Below, one piece after another: positions 31,411 to 38,270 of a stretch of DNA of 58,194 bases (its first letter is position 1; each line of letters begins with the position of its first letter). Made by a program: the position numbers and the translations under genes. The notes under the pieces were generated by a model that worked only from the letters and a program-made list of their open reading frames with translations, was not told the DNA's origin and ran no database searches. Source of the stretch: Candidatus Woesearchaeota archaeon (GTDB lineage: Archaea > Nanobdellota > Nanobdellia > Woesearchaeales > 21-14-0-10-32-9); contig JAIPHP010000007.1 of the NCBI GenBank assembly GCA_021735165.1, positions 1 through 58,194 on the forward strand, written 5' to 3'.

Positions 31411-32529
31411 TCAATGCTTCTTGAAATTATTCTTAACATAATCAACCAATTTACTGCCAAAAATCTTAATACTACTAGGACCAAAACGAACATAAAATTC
31501 CTCTGAACCCATATAATTCAAAAAAACAGGCTTATTACTTCTTGAAACCTCAACTTTACAAACTAACAAAGAATTAACACTTACAAAGTCCACCCTAATC
31601 AACGAAAAAACACTACGACCAATAAACTTCTCAATCAAATTAGTAAAATGCAAAGAAAACTTATCAGAACTCCTAAAACCATCAGCATCAATGCCCAAAA
31701 TAGTTCCTTCATCAGAAACACCAATTAACAAAACACCGCCAAAACTATTAAGAAAAGCAACAATGGTCTTAAGAACACTATGTTCAATACGCTTATCATG
31801 CTCCCCTGTAAAAAGATTAGTACGAAGAGCAGACTTAAACTCAACAGTAGAACTCTCACCAGAACTAATTAACACATTTAACTGATCAACAGGATCAACA
31901 ATACCCCTAAACAAAGAAGGATTCTTCTTCAACAAAGAAAAAACAAACTTCTTAACAAAGGAATACTTAAAAAAACGCATATGAATAAACCCCATACTAG
32001 CCGCAAAAAAAGAACCAAGCAAAAAAACAACGACATTCCAAAACTCCCTAAAAACACTACCTGAAAAAAACACAAAATCAAAATTAAACTGCAAAAACAA
32101 CTTCAAAATTTCCCACAATAAAGCAGAAGTAGAAGCAAAACTAAAACAAAACAAAGAAATAAAAAACGGACTCAACCTTAAATTATCATGATTTCCCACA
32201 TTCAAAATAAAAATAATCATAAACGCAACTAAAACAGTTATAATACCAAGAACAAAACGAATAAACAAATCCCACCAAGAAAATAAACTAATAAAAAAAT
32301 CCAAATTCCCAACATAAATAGTGACAAACAAAAACAACAAAGTAAAAAACTCCAAACCGCCAAAAACTCTCTTCTTATTAAAAAAAACAGGCAAAGACAA
32401 AATCAAAATCAAAAAACTCAAAATAATATTAACCCAATTCCTAGTCAAAAAAGAATACAATAAAGCAACAGGCAATAAAAAAGCAAAAACCCAAAAAGAA
32501 ACACTAAATTTATTGTAAGTCTCGCTCAT
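31411..32529 (-). CDS. Membrane protein with C-terminal AlbA_2 (Schlafen-type) domain
   Basis: 372 aa. About six membrane segments fill residues 8-190. Residues ~225-365 form an AlbA_2 domain: ESSTVEFKSALR (E-x-K), LKTIVAFLNSFGGVLLIGVSDEG and ILGIDADGF. AlbA_2 domains bind nucleotide or RNA; fusion to a polytopic membrane domain is unusual and suggests signalling or surveillance. Divergent from the DHH/nuclease operon. Its coding strand is G/T-rich. Confidence 0.75.
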   Translation of the reverse strand: MSETYNKFSVSFWVFAFLLPVALLYSFLTRNWVNIILSFLILILSLPVFFNKKRVFGGLEFFTLLFLFVTIYVGNLDFFISLFSWWDLFIRFVLGIITVLVAFMIIFILNVGNHDNLRLSPFFISLFCFSFASTSALLWEILKLFLQFNFDFVFFSGSVFREFWNVVVFLLGSFFAASMGFIHMRFFKYSFVKKFVFSLLKKNPSLFRGIVDPVDQLNVLISSGESSTVEFKSALRTNLFTGEHDKRIEHSVLKTIVAFLNSFGGVLLIGVSDEGTILGIDADGFRSSDKFSLHFTNLIEKFIGRSVFSLIRVDFVSVNSLLVCKVEVSRSNKPVFLNYMGSEEFYVRFGPSSIKIFGSKLVDYVKNNFKKH

Positions 32530-32616
32530 AAAAATCCCCGCATAACAAAATAACGATAAACTTATATATTTAATAGTTTCGCTATTTTATAATAGTGACC
32601 AAAGGGGTTTTGAAAA

Positions 32617-34680
32617 ATCAATCTAACAGAAATACTGGAAAGAGAAAATACAAAATACGAGAAAATTCTTCAGGAATTAAAAAAAGCAGCACACACATTA
32701 TATGAAAGACTGGCAAATTACGAATACAGAAACATAAACATAGTAAGCCACCTAGCTGATGCTGACGGTCTGGGATCATTAATTCTTGAACCAGGGCTTA
32801 AAATAATTGTAGAAACACTAGGAAAAACAGAAATACCTAAAGGAGAAAAACCTCAAGCACACAATTACAACATACAATCAGAAAGACACATGACTATTTC
32901 TGACAATGAAGAAGACGAAAACAGCATAACAAAAATAAAAGAAAGAAGGGGAAATGGAACCTACATATTCTCAGACCTCTCTGTTATGAACCCGGAAAGA
33001 CTAAAACAACTAGAAGAAGCAATAATTTTAGATCACCACAAACCCCTAAAATTTGAAGGAAAACACCAATACATAAACCCCTGCAATTACAAAATAGACG
33101 GGGCAAAAGAACTATCAGGATCCCTGCTTTCAGGGATTCTTCTTCATTACATAAAAGACGAACTTATAAAAGATGAAAACGTAAAACTAGATAAAAAAAT
33201 AAAAAAAGAACTAAACGAAAAAATAGACTACCTTACAATGTTTGCACTGGCAGGATCAAAAGCAGACCAGCAAAAAGACGAAGGAATAAACAAAACAATT
33301 TACGAATATTACATTAACAACCAAAAACTACAAAAAGAAGACAGCCCATTCTTCGGTTACTTCACAAAAACAATCTCTTATGCCATAGCAGAATCTCAAA
33401 TCCCATTAAACCTAAAATACGATGTCGCAAACAACGAACAAAGAAAAAAATTCCTATTTTCACAAGGATACAAAAAAATAGGAGAATCCACAGAAAAAAT
33501 AAGAAATGAACTAGAATTATTATTCGTGATAGATATAAACAAAAAACAAACAGGAATAAATAAAATAATTCTTGACACAATAAGTGAAGAAAAAATAGAA
33601 AAAATAAACAAAGAATTCCGAGAACAATACAACAAAAACCTCATAGAAATTGCAGAAAACGGAGAAAGACTCATAACTAATGCGAACGGCGAATACATAG
33701 ACCCAATAATAGAAGACTACAAAGACGATGAAAAAAGACATAAACAAAGAATACAACTTGCGGACAGATTGCTTTTCGAACTGGGAATAACTGAAGAACA
33801 TATGAATGATTTGAAAGGAACTACAAGATACAAAAGATATACACTTCTAGGACAACTCGAAAAAAGATTAATCGCATTCTCAGATCCAAGAAAAAGAAAA
33901 GAAAATCATGAATTATTCAAAGAACACCAACACATAATAACAGACCAAAAAAGTAAACTCCTCAAGAATAAATCAATAGCAGAGATCGCAAACGAGATGA
34001 CTGCCTATTCAAAAATGGGTGAGATTGATGAAGAACTACAAATAAACAACAAAACAATAAAAACATACGGACAATTATTCATGGAAGCAATTGTAATAGA
34101 ACTAGAAGGAAAATATGATCCTGACGATGAAAAACAGCAAATAGTATTCAAAAAACTTATAGATATAAAAAAACAATACAATCAAACAATTCATGATGGA
34201 ATGGAACTAATAGAAAAATGGATTTTAAACAACGACCTAAAAAAACTAGAACAAGAAACATTAACAGAAACATACTCAAACACAGAAAACAGAAGCAGAC
34301 TAATAGAAATAGGAAAAAGAGCATATCTAATACAACTAGACAACCTTGAAACAGAGCTTGAAAAAAATATAGAATTCCTAAGAGTTATGACTGGCGTCTT
34401 TGGAGGAATAACAGCAAAATCAAGAATACTACCAGAAGACTACGGAGTGCTATTCACATCACTAGAAACAAAAGAAGGACTTTACAAAATAAGTGCGAGA
34501 ACAAACAAAGCGCCCGGACAAGAAATTCATTTAGGAGAATTCTATGAAAAAATGACAAAACTCAAAGTGACGGAAAGCGGAGGAGGGCACCCGGAAGCAG
34601 CAAGCTGCTATATCAAAAAAGAAAATCTTGATAAACTAGGAGAACAAATAAAAAAAGAATACGTACTTAACGAGAAATAA
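32617..34680 (+). CDS. DHH-family (RecJ-like) phosphoesterase with probable AUC start
   Basis: 687 aa from ATC 32617. Upstream of the first ATG (32890) the frame encodes HLADADGLGS, the first DHH metal motif, so that ATG is too late. Later motifs: TYIFSDLS, IILDHHKP and, near the C-terminus, GGGHPEAAS of DHHA1. A long charged helical insert (~240-560) separates the two lobes. A stop lies at 32611; AAGGGG is 9 nt before ATC. Alternatively a GTG at 32595 (leaderless) is joined by a +1 shift at the A-run 32613-32617. Likely single-strand 5'-3' exonuclease or oligonucleotide nuclease; couples with the next gene. Confidence 0.75.
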   Translation: MNLTEILERENTKYEKILQELKKAAHTLYERLANYEYRNINIVSHLADADGLGSLILEPGLKIIVETLGKTEIPKGEKPQAHNYNIQSERHMTISDNEEDENSITKIKERRGNGTYIFSDLSVMNPERLKQLEEAIILDHHKPLKFEGKHQYINPCNYKIDGAKELSGSLLSGILLHYIKDELIKDENVKLDKKIKKELNEKIDYLTMFALAGSKADQQKDEGINKTIYEYYINNQKLQKEDSPFFGYFTKTISYAIAESQIPLNLKYDVANNEQRKKFLFSQGYKKIGESTEKIRNELELLFVIDINKKQTGINKIILDTISEEKIEKINKEFREQYNKNLIEIAENGERLITNANGEYIDPIIEDYKDDEKRHKQRIQLADRLLFELGITEEHMNDLKGTTRYKRYTLLGQLEKRLIAFSDPRKRKENHELFKEHQHIITDQKSKLLKNKSIAEIANEMTAYSKMGEIDEELQINNKTIKTYGQLFMEAIVIELEGKYDPDDEKQQIVFKKLIDIKKQYNQTIHDGMELIEKWILNNDLKKLEQETLTETYSNTENRSRLIEIGKRAYLIQLDNLETELEKNIEFLRVMTGVFGGITAKSRILPEDYGVLFTSLETKEGLYKISARTNKAPGQEIHLGEFYEKMTKLKVTESGGGHPEAASCYIKKENLDKLGEQIKKEYVLNEK

Positions 34681-34682
34681 AA

Positions 34683-36761
34683 ATGTTATTAGGACCACAC
34701 ACAAAACTTGACACATACGAAGAAACAATAATAGAAATACTTCTAAAACAAAATAAAGAATTATATTTTCCAGTATTTGATACAAAACTTCTTGGAACAT
34801 TTAATAGAAAACTTAAAGAAAATAGCCCTGACTACAGTTCAGAAATATTCTTTCTTTCAGGAGGAATAATAATACCTTTAGATCTTTTAGATTTAAAAAA
34901 ACACAAAACATTTACAAAAAAAGGGTTTGTAGAAAAAAATAATAAATTCATATCAACATTTGATGTGCTATTTTTATACGAACAAGAAAATGCAATAATA
35001 GCACACCCACTAGACTTCAAATCAGGAGGTGCGCCAGATATAGACTCTAAAAATGACAAACACAGCTCCGTACTAAACCAAATAAGCAGCTATAATGCAG
35101 CATACCTAATATCGCAAACGCCCTTCCTTAGAGAAATAATGAAAAAAATAGAAGAAGAAACAAATAAAAAAATCATAATAGACAGCGGTTATTTCATATT
35201 AGGAAAAAATAAATCCAACAACTATAAATCCGAACAAAATAAAATAGAAGAAGAACTCAAAAAGTCTCTAAAACTAAAAAATATATACGGAGCACTCAAC
35301 ATAACAATAAATCCTAATAACAAAAAGGCACTTGACATTTCTATAAAAAAAAATGAAGATGAACCAATCAAAGCTAGCAACGAATATCATCTTTCAAAAA
35401 CAACCTATGATGATATGAAAAATGAATTGAGGTTTCTAAAAAACAGAATAAAATACAGAGGCTTCTACGGCAACACAACAATAGCAGTGGGAGCAAACAG
35501 AAAAGGGGAACTCGTAAAACAGCTAGAATACTTTCCCGCAACAAGCATAAAGACATATACGCCAAGAACTGAAAAACTCGAATACTACCTTGGAGAACTA
35601 GAACGAAACGAAGATGAATTTACAAAAAAGCAAGAAAGCATAGATCAAAAAATCAGAGAACTAGAAACGCAAACACCAAACGAGTTAAAATACGAACTTT
35701 TCAACAAAGAATACAACGCAATATATGAAAAACTTTACAGACAAGGAGAAGCGCAAATAAATGAAAGAAAAAAAAGAATAGAAGAATCAACAAAAAGAAA
35801 AATCCTAGAAATAGATAAAAAAGTTGAAATAATACTAAAACAAAAAGAACTAACACAACAAAAAATAGAAGAAACAACACAACAAATAAAAAATTCAAAA
35901 TCAAATTATGAAAACGCAATAAACGAGTTAAAATATCTAAATGAAAATAAACCAAACAGATTCAAAAAGAAAAAAAGAAGAATCTCATCAAGAATAACTA
36001 AAACTGAAGAAGAAATACAAAAAAAAGAAAAAGAGAGAAACGATCTTAAAAATTATAAAAACACATCAATAAGAGACTGTAAAAAAGAGGCAGAAAACAA
36101 AACAAAAACCGAAAACAACACAAGAAAATTAATTCTGCACCTTGAACAGGAAAAACTGGAACTAAAAAATTTTTATAAAAAAATACAACGCGATCTTGAA
36201 GAAAATAAACAAAGAGAAATAGACATAGAATTAGAAACATTACAAAAAGTTCAAGAAGTTATGATAAATAAAAAACCAAAAAATGAGAAAAAAAGACTAG
36301 AAAAAACAAATTACCTCATAAAACTTACAAAAATGGTGACAAACAAAACAACAAAGTATAACACTCTAAAATCTGAAATATTCGAAGCGAGAGAAAAACT
36401 ATACAATGAACTTCAAAAATTGAATTGGTTTACAGAAGAAGGATTTAATATATTACAAAACTATAGAACTCAAAAAATTGAAAACTATAAAAATCAAAAA
36501 GAAGAATGGAAACAAACATATAAATTAATGAAAAGAAAAATACAAAACAACATATACAAAGAGCAAGAAATTGTAAAAAAGCAAAAATTAGACGATAAAT
36601 TAGAAGATGAAAAATTAACAAAGGAAATAAAAAAATTTCATAGGAATATTCCTTACAAAACATCAAAAAATTCAAATATAAAAGACAATCCTTTGATACT
36701 ATATATCAATCTTAACAACACAACAGTATATAAAGCACAATTTTATAATAAAATATCATAA
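34683..36761 (+). CDS. RecB-like PD-(D/E)XK nuclease with long coiled coil
   Basis: 692 aa. Residues 94-137 show a RecB/Cas4-like core: Asp94 in TFDVLFLY, D111-F-K113 in HPLDFKSGG, then Gln133 and Tyr137 in LNQISSYNAAYL. Residues ~300-640 are a very charged, almost continuous coiled coil rich in Lys/Glu; no Walker motifs. Ends in a beta-like tail (LILYINLNNTTVYKAQFYN). It starts 2 nt after the DHH gene, so both proteins are probably co-made. Nuclease assignment is by motif only; the coiled coil could tether DNA ends in a Rad50-like way. Confidence 0.65.
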   Translation: MLLGPHTKLDTYEETIIEILLKQNKELYFPVFDTKLLGTFNRKLKENSPDYSSEIFFLSGGIIIPLDLLDLKKHKTFTKKGFVEKNNKFISTFDVLFLYEQENAIIAHPLDFKSGGAPDIDSKNDKHSSVLNQISSYNAAYLISQTPFLREIMKKIEEETNKKIIIDSGYFILGKNKSNNYKSEQNKIEEELKKSLKLKNIYGALNITINPNNKKALDISIKKNEDEPIKASNEYHLSKTTYDDMKNELRFLKNRIKYRGFYGNTTIAVGANRKGELVKQLEYFPATSIKTYTPRTEKLEYYLGELERNEDEFTKKQESIDQKIRELETQTPNELKYELFNKEYNAIYEKLYRQGEAQINERKKRIEESTKRKILEIDKKVEIILKQKELTQQKIEETTQQIKNSKSNYENAINELKYLNENKPNRFKKKKRRISSRITKTEEEIQKKEKERNDLKNYKNTSIRDCKKEAENKTKTENNTRKLILHLEQEKLELKNFYKKIQRDLEENKQREIDIELETLQKVQEVMINKKPKNEKKRLEKTNYLIKLTKMVTNKTTKYNTLKSEIFEAREKLYNELQKLNWFTEEGFNILQNYRTQKIENYKNQKEEWKQTYKLMKRKIQNNIYKEQEIVKKQKLDDKLEDEKLTKEIKKFHRNIPYKTSKNSNIKDNPLILYINLNNTTVYKAQFYNKIS

Positions 36762-36768
36762 GAAAAAA

Positions 36769-37947
36769 CTAATTATTACCCTTACCTTTTCTTCCACGTT
36801 CACCCTTCCAATTAATAACAGGTTTTAAATGCTTAACAATCCTAACAGAATCTTTTTGTTTATCCATAACATGAAACACATTTTTATAAGCCATAGGTGC
36901 CTCATCAAGAGTTCCCTGCGTAACAGTTCCTTTAATACCAATCATCGCATTCTTAAAATCATCCATAGAAAATTCTTCTTTAGCATTCTTCCTACTATAT
37001 TTCCTTCCGGCACCATGACTTGAGCTTTCAATGAAATCTTCATTACCAAACCCCTCAACCAAGAAACAACCATCCCTCATATTTCCTGGAATGACTCCTC
37101 GCTCTCCTTTTTTAGCAGGAGTAGCTCCTTTCCTATGAATAAAAAAACCATTTTCAAAAATAGCATGATTATGATTCTTATTAGTCCAAAGTTCGAATTC
37201 GACAGTTTCTTCAAGAACATCTTCCAATCCCTTAATAGTTCTCTCAATCAATTCCAATCTGTTTCTTAAGGCAAATTTCAAACCAAAATCCAGAATATTC
37301 AAATACTCCTTTCCAACTTCAGAATCTTTATGAATGGGATGCGTCGCCTCATACACATTATCTGCACCTGCAACTTTTTTCATATACTTTTCAGCAACCT
37401 TAAATCCAACTCCTCTGGAACCAGAGTGAACTACAATCCAAGCATCTCCATCTTCATCTTCACTAATTTCAATAAAATGATTACCATCACCTAAGCTTCC
37501 TATATGCCTAATTGCTTTGCCCTCCAAAAATTGCAAAATTTCCTTATTATAAGCGCCATTCTTAAACTCATTAATAAGTTCAACATAATCTTCTTTAGTT
37601 TTCCTTGTGACTTGTGTAACAGAATTAATCTCGCCCTTACCCATAGGGATTCTTTTCTTAACTGCTTCAAATATAGCATCCTGATGTTCTCTAATTTTTT
37701 TAATCATATCCTTTCCTTTAATATGAACTGCAGTCATACCGCAACCAATATCATAGCCAACCCACGATGGAACAACAAAATCTTTAGTTACAAGAACACT
37801 ACCTATAGGTGCAACATAGCCAAGATGTGCATCAGGCATCAAAGCCCCTTTAATGACAAAATTAAAACCCATGCAGTCTTCAAACTGCTTTAAAGTTTCA
37901 CTATCTAAATCATCAGCATAAATAAATTTCTTCTTCTCTTTAGACAT
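36769..37947 (-). CDS. rtcB: RtcB RNA ligase
   Basis: 392 aa from ATG 37947 (residues before it belong to a chance upstream extension). Signature segments: MPDAHLGYVAPIGSV, DIGCGMTAV (metal Cys), GDGNHFIE, VVHSGSRGVG and SSHGAGRKYSR (His that is guanylylated). It joins 2',3'-cyclic phosphate and 5'-OH RNA ends, including tRNA exons after intron removal. Slightly shorter than the usual ~480 aa archaeal form. A tRNA with an intron lies at 53948. Confidence 0.93.
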   Translation of the reverse strand: MSKEKKKFIYADDLDSETLKQFEDCMGFNFVIKGALMPDAHLGYVAPIGSVLVTKDFVVPSWVGYDIGCGMTAVHIKGKDMIKKIREHQDAIFEAVKKRIPMGKGEINSVTQVTRKTKEDYVELINEFKNGAYNKEILQFLEGKAIRHIGSLGDGNHFIEISEDEDGDAWIVVHSGSRGVGFKVAEKYMKKVAGADNVYEATHPIHKDSEVGKEYLNILDFGLKFALRNRLELIERTIKGLEDVLEETVEFELWTNKNHNHAIFENGFFIHRKGATPAKKGERGVIPGNMRDGCFLVEGFGNEDFIESSSHGAGRKYSRKNAKEEFSMDDFKNAMIGIKGTVTQGTLDEAPMAYKNVFHVMDKQKDSVRIVKHLKPVINWKGERGRKGKGNN

Positions 37948-38003
37948 AAAAGTGAAGAATGAAGCGCCTTTTTTAAATTTTAAGTAATAAATTAGTAAAA
38001 TAC

Positions 38004-38270
38004 TCAAAAATCTATGAATTGTATTCTAGGAATCTCTTTTTTATCTTCTTTTTCTTCTTCCTCTATTTGAGAATTTGAAGAAGAACTATTAGCATCATCA
38101 AAAATATTAAATGCGCCAGGAGAAGGATTAGAAATTTCAGAATTTTGAGAACTATATTCTGAACTCTGAACACCATAATCTGCGCTTTGACCTACGTATG
38201 CTTGAAGCATCCTTATAGCTTTCATTATTTCCGCATCAGAATCTTTCTTAGTATCAATATGAATCTCCAT
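38004..38270 (-). CDS. Small acidic protein with disordered tail
   Basis: 88 aa. Starts MEIHIDTKKDSDAEIMKAIRML (ordered, helical) and continues in a Ser/Asn/Gln-rich, then Glu-rich disordered stretch ending KEIPRIQFIDF. The final hydrophobic motif could be a docking peptide. Unknown function; 57 nt upstream of rtcB, same strand. Confidence 0.55.
   Translation of the reverse strand: MEIHIDTKKDSDAEIMKAIRMLQAYVGQSADYGVQSSEYSSQNSEISNPSPGAFNIFDDANSSSSNSQIEEEEKEDKKEIPRIQFIDF

Follow-up and report, generated by a model that had tools for sequence, protein, structure and literature searches.

Nucleases of the RecJ family act in resection, and their known partners form a short list: GINS, Hef, HerA, and aRNase J. 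In archaea, RecJ is frequently at work in the replisome (PMC3307487), and RecJ3/4 of Haloferax is reported to be a 3'-5' exoribonuclease that works with aRNase J and prefers RNA over single-stranded DNA (PMC10470531). How DPANN archaea handle foreign or damaged nucleic acid is largely open, because CRISPR-Cas and restriction-modification systems are underrepresented in these organisms (PMC12988326). The 58,194-nucleotide contig JAIPHP010000007.1 (assembly GCA_021735165.1), the whole of which is called the window here, belongs to the 1.1-megabase genome of a Candidatus Woesearchaeota archaeon assembled in 31 contigs. It carries two adjacent genes on its plus strand: gene 1 encodes a long RecJ-type protein with DHH and DHHA1 domains, and gene 2 a putative nuclease domain of the PD-(D/E)XK type joined to long helical arms. 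Components of both kinds are already known; neither the pair nor its second protein matches anything in Pfam, NCBIfam, PADLOC, PDB, or the literature searched (mostly non-subscription), in agreement with an earlier note on this DNA, whose author knew of no such pair. It is proposed tentatively, with somewhat less than even confidence, that the two genes form one unit and that their products act as an accessory nuclease complex on foreign or damaged DNA.

The two genes have been found only together. Profile searches of 353 genomes of the order Woesearchaeales detected the long type of gene 1 in G000, G001, G333, and G341 only, which were also the only genomes to yield gene 2; neither gene was seen alone. 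The carriers represent three genera and three families, with two of the 11 genomes in the family of the window, one of 10 in that of G333, and one of six in that of G341. In all four genomes the genes are adjacent, with order and strand kept. They overlap by four nucleotides in G001 (the genus-mate of the window), G341, and G333, and are separated by two nucleotides in the window, where the stop codon of gene 1 ends at 34680 and gene 2 starts at 34683, as the earlier note had read. The same note had set conserved co-occurrence in other genomes beforehand as a check that could overturn its proposal, and the linkage was indeed conserved, in four of four genomes from three families. The remaining matches to gene 2 in the order were weak (E > 0.001) and are judged to be chance, because their scores are low and no genome that gave one also has the long DHH gene; the only match inspected, in G290, is an ABC-transporter permease-like protein. 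A further 371 genomes drawn from the phylum added only RecJ of canonical length, and 84,980 species genomes, searched by degenerate motif and tblastn only, yielded G001, G333, and otherwise canonical-length RecJ.

The pair is absent from 349 of the 353 genomes of the order, and from the nine other genomes of the window family, some of which are 99–100% complete. Either transfer or repeated loss could account for so scattered a distribution. Between the window and G001, the identity of gene 1 is 70–72%, within the range of the neighbouring genes. That of gene 2 is 29–37%, its nuclease half included, which is the lowest among the 14 genes of the locus (neighbours 48–83%).

Archaeal RecJ, GAN, and RecJ-Cdc45 are the best matches of gene 1 in both profile and structure searches. 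The profile match to Pyrococcus furiosus RecJ in PDB has an E value of 4e-22, and archaeal RecJ/GAN head the structure search (E 3e-8), for which the input was a low-confidence AlphaFold model (predicted local distance difference test, pLDDT, of 46). In Pfam, DHHA1 is matched with 28.9 bits against a cut-off of 25.9 (E 2e-6), and DHH with an E value of 2e-5, under the family cut-off. The RecJ_archaeal model of NCBIfam gives 79 bits, and 61–72 bits for the relatives, so far under the equivalog cut-off of 360 that membership of canonical archaeal RecJ was rejected. The three motifs by which the earlier note had recognised a RecJ-like DHH protein, HLADADGLGS, IILDHHKP, and GGGHPEAAS, are all present, and the catalytic set is complete: D48, D50, D120, D139-HH, D217, and GGGH at residues 655–658 are invariant in the four long DHH homologues.

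Gene 1 resembles the archaeal RecJ, GAN, and HAN enzymes (P. furiosus RecJ, 5x4h; Thermococcus GAN, 5ghr; Methanothermobacter RecJ-Cdc45, 7bhi) in DHH motifs I–IV, in the GGGH motif of DHHA1, and in the order of its domains. By contrast with canonical archaeal RecJ of 440–500 residues, the long DHH proteins carry insertions that sum to about 220 residues, the largest at residues ~302–438. They also have an extra residue in motif I, SHL-A-DADG, and a segment MTAxSK that replaces the canonical LNACGR-like one. Maximum-likelihood phylogeny groups the four long proteins, with 100/100 support, in a single clade set on a long branch. Because the catalytic residues are kept, the insertions are shared, and the clade is their own, gene 1 is, judged from its sequence, a member of a subfamily of its own among the RecJ-type enzymes, and one that looks catalytically active. 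Three further DHH proteins of 374, 502, and 352 residues are encoded in the window genome on L001, L002, and L003; the one of 502 residues has a long additional N-terminal region.

Sequence searches for gene 2 in Pfam, NCBIfam, PADLOC, and PDB returned nothing meaningful. From the single sequence, the earlier note had picked D94, D111, K113, Q133, and Y137 as a nuclease pattern. The first four residues are invariant among the four homologues, but position 137 is Y, Y, L, or W. The invariant positions number 17 in 304 residues (M1, P65, D67, I90, D94, P109, D111, K113, Q133, N138, L142, G169, E190, N254, Y262, G270, and P285), and the chance that at least four of five blind picks fall on them is 3e-5. 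A proline precedes D94 in three of the four homologues, which gives a literal PD...DxK motif. The AlphaFold model of gene 2, built like that of gene 1 with a three-row alignment, is of low confidence (pLDDT 51; predicted template modelling score 0.29); it contains strands at residues 95–101 and 104–110 and a helix at 136–145, in an order that fits the PD-(D/E)XK core.

The kinship with RecB and Cas4 that the earlier note had read into this pattern found no support. A comparison by hhalign of the four-row gene 2 profile with 29 Woesearchaeal PDDEXK_1 proteins scored 13.7, below the reversed control and within the range of shuffled decoys, which reached 21.3; it aligned 17 columns, with the motif outside them. 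Gene 2 shares with RecB/Cas4-type PDDEXK_1 proteins the order D ... DxK ... Q at similar spacing. It differs from them in that it has no profile match, the final tyrosine is present in only two of the four homologues, and there are no conserved cysteines; its domain carries long arms instead of a helicase or Cas module. Since the motif is invariant yet the profile comparison stays at decoy level, gene 2 is here called PD-(D/E)XK-like on account of its motif and is not assigned to RecB/Cas4; its product is a putative nuclease.

The other half of the earlier description of protein 2, a nuclease-like motif joined to long arms, stands. Helical arms make up about 350 residues of the window protein, and their two long helices are parted by a short turn; the model is confident at residues ~360–500 only. 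The coiled coil dominates the fold search with this model, which returned only coiled-coil and helical proteins. As judged by composition, the helical part is much shorter in G341 (residues ~300–460 of 508), and in G333 helical-type stretches at ~280–370 and 600–740 enclose a stretch rich in proline and glycine that is probably globular. The variable length of the helical stretches and the probable globular insert in G333 suggest that the arms fold back and that their tip is variable.

Homology of the arms with those of Rad50, at which the earlier note had hinted, is not supported: no CxxC zinc hook occurs in any copy of gene 2 (that of G001 is split over two contigs), and the arm length varies. 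The suggestion in that note that the pair does without a Rad50 ATPase is upheld, because a Walker A motif (GxxxxGK[ST]) is found in none of the eight proteins encoded by both genes in the four genomes. The pair is similar to Rad50/SbcC–Mre11/SbcD in combining a nuclease with long helical arms that possibly fold back. Unlike that complex, it has no Walker A motif, CxxC hook, or Mre11-type phosphoesterase, and its arms belong to the same polypeptide as the nuclease-like domain.

The strict linkage, the four-nucleotide overlaps, the intact DHH and DHHA1 residues, and the invariant D94, D111, K113, and Q133 with a fitting predicted structure argue for a single nuclease unit. Its two genes would be co-translated and their products would bind each other. 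Protein 2 would cut first or recognise the substrate, and its arms, folded back, could serve as a spacer, a dimeriser, or a clamp without an ATPase. The RecJ-like subunit would then digest the freed single strand. The unit would be an accessory system against genetic elements and not a part of housekeeping repair, with DNA that is foreign or damaged as its substrate. The patchy spread and the fast change of gene 2 favour such a role in conflict, which is nevertheless put forward with less confidence than the complex. The most specific form of the proposal is rather unlikely to be right as a whole: an ATPase-free degrading machine of DPANN archaea with an anti-element role, in which an exonuclease of the RecJ type receives its substrate from a PD-(D/E)XK nuclease that has fold-back arms of its own. 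If true, it would be a new coupling of nuclease and arms outside the Rad50/SMC family. A linked unit of RecJ and a second nuclease with intact active-site motifs is directly testable from two genes.

Several points weigh against an accessory nuclease complex directed at foreign or damaged DNA. The physical complex of the two proteins is presumed, and the known copies are four only. No PD-(D/E)XK family matched gene 2 in the Pfam search, the comparison with RecB/Cas4 did not rise above its decoys, and the models of both proteins are of low confidence. The pair was not found in viral contigs or phages, searched for both genes, or in plasmids, searched for gene 1. No convincing known defence gene adjoins the tested copies; PADLOC matched neither gene of the window and gave only weak coiled-coil matches to gene 2 of G341 and G333. 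The site of the pair is stable in the genus, with the same neighbours in two species, which also fits a housekeeping role.

It is possible but unlikely that the pair is a chromosomal module for DNA repair or end resection, in which one strand is resected by the RecJ-like subunit once protein 2 has opened or trimmed the end, much as RecJ does with its partners in other organisms. Resection is an established activity of the RecJ family, and the stable location beside core genes, the lack of clear defence genes nearby, and the absence from the mobile elements searched are what leave room for repair. However, a core repair function would be odd for a pair that is missing from nearly all of the order and from most of the window family, and gene 2 changes unusually fast for it.

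The pair is quite improbable as an RNA-degrading machine, with the DHH subunit as a 3'-5' exoribonuclease and protein 2 as an accessory or endonuclease subunit. Such a function is conceivable because of the Haloferax complex of RecJ3/4 and aRNase J, in which a RecJ-type exonuclease that prefers RNA is likewise combined with an unrelated second nuclease (PMC10470531). The partner in Haloferax is an RNase J; the one described here is PD-(D/E)XK-like, bears helical arms, and is encoded directly next to the DHH protein. In the genus of the window the pair lies between genes for a Schlafen/AlbA_2 protein and for an RtcB RNA ligase, but this context is not present in G341 or G333. Nucleases of the PD-(D/E)XK type mostly cut DNA, and domain searches of the pair proteins detected no RNA-binding domain. 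If repair or RNA decay were the function instead, the pair would still add a new RecJ partner to GINS, Hef, HerA, and aRNase J.

A very improbable alternative is that gene 2 does not encode a nuclease, its conserved domain doing something else while the arms make a scaffold partner for the DHH enzyme. The lack of any fold or family match agrees with this; against it stand the invariant D94, D111, K113, and Q133 at PD...DxK...Q spacing, which had been predicted blind. Least probable of all is that the DHH protein is the replication-associated RecJ of the lineage (GAN/Cdc45-like) and gene 2 a replication accessory: archaeal RecJ is often replisome-linked and the window genome has no DHH protein at or above the NCBIfam cut-off for canonical archaeal RecJ, but sister genera have neither the pair nor a RecJ above the cut-off, so that the pair is not a needed RecJ replacement and a replicative role is unlikely, and the three further DHH proteins of the window genome and the extreme patchiness of the pair also speak against it.

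The coordinates of the pair and of the elements upstream of it are collected in Table 1.

Table 1 Features of the two-gene unit and its upstream region in the window.
Feature	Position	Strand	Basis
TATA-like element CTTATATATTTAATA, inferred promoter of the pair	32561-32575	+	same letters in G001 (two-species intergenic alignment)
Near-palindrome CTATTTTATAATAG between the divergent Schlafen/AlbA gene and the pair, candidate operator	32582-32595	.	same letters in G001
Gene 1, long RecJ-type DHH-DHHA1 protein, 687 residues counted from ATC 32617	32617-34680	+	Pfam, NCBIfam, PDB profile, structure match
Motif I, D48-A-D50, HLADADG (one extra residue relative to canonical HL-DADG)	32758-32766	+	invariant in four homologues; alignment with canonical RecJ
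Motif III, D139-H-H	33031-33039	+	invariant in four homologues
Main insertion, residues ~302-438, not in canonical archaeal RecJ of 440-500 residues	33520-33930	+	alignment of four long and seven canonical proteins
DHHA1 motif, G655-G-G-H658	34579-34590	+	invariant in four homologues
Gene 2, putative PD-(D/E)XK-type nuclease domain, middle domain, long helical arms, C-terminal beta hairpin; 692 residues	34683-36761	+	open reading frame; adjoins gene 1 in four of four genomes
Core motif, D94 ... D111-x-K113 (relatives: P-D ... P-[LI]-D-x-K)	34962-35021	+	P109, D94, D111, K113 invariant; predicted strands 95-101, 104-110
Q133, first residue of QxxxY-like helix	35079-35081	+	invariant in four homologues; helix 136-145 predicted
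Helical arms, residues 296-653, with long helices 333-422 and 428-529	35568-36641	+	model; composition
C-terminal beta hairpin, residues 671-687	36693-36743	+	low-confidence model; C-terminal sequence alike in G001 and G333

The reading frame of gene 1 is the one given in the earlier note, but it lacks a standard start there. A TGA occupies positions 32611–32613 of this frame, residue 1 as read is ATC at 32617, and no ATG, GTG, or TTG follows until 32890, where a start would leave the protein without motif I of DHH. In G001, the genus-mate, the corresponding position is occupied by a clean ATG. The window therefore has either a discrepancy of one base or a non-standard start. A TTG at 32610 is one base out of the gene 1 frame, beside a run of five A (32613–32617). 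An error in sequencing or assembly could explain the missing start, as could a true frameshift or a rare non-standard start codon.

The pair occupies the same place in the window and in G001, flanked by a divergent membrane protein and by RtcB. The membrane protein (31411–32529, minus strand) carries a Schlafen/AlbA_2 domain at its C-terminus (Pfam E 4e-18) and is 57% identical to its counterpart in the same place in G001; the conserved intergenic region is common to this neighbour and the pair, and CTATTTTATAATAG has no second exact copy within the window. The RtcB-type ligase on the other side (36769–38007, minus strand) is 32–36% identical to RtcB of other genera in the family. Because of this low identity it may, on sequence, be a different RtcB subtype, and it is unusable as a marker for the empty site. 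No neighbours of the window pair are common to G341 or G333. An orphan protein of 343 residues without a Pfam match is encoded upstream of the pair in G333 (L053:1938-2966, plus strand), and its motif MDGLAKWEDHLYVLEAKTG resembles another PD-(D/E)XK core.

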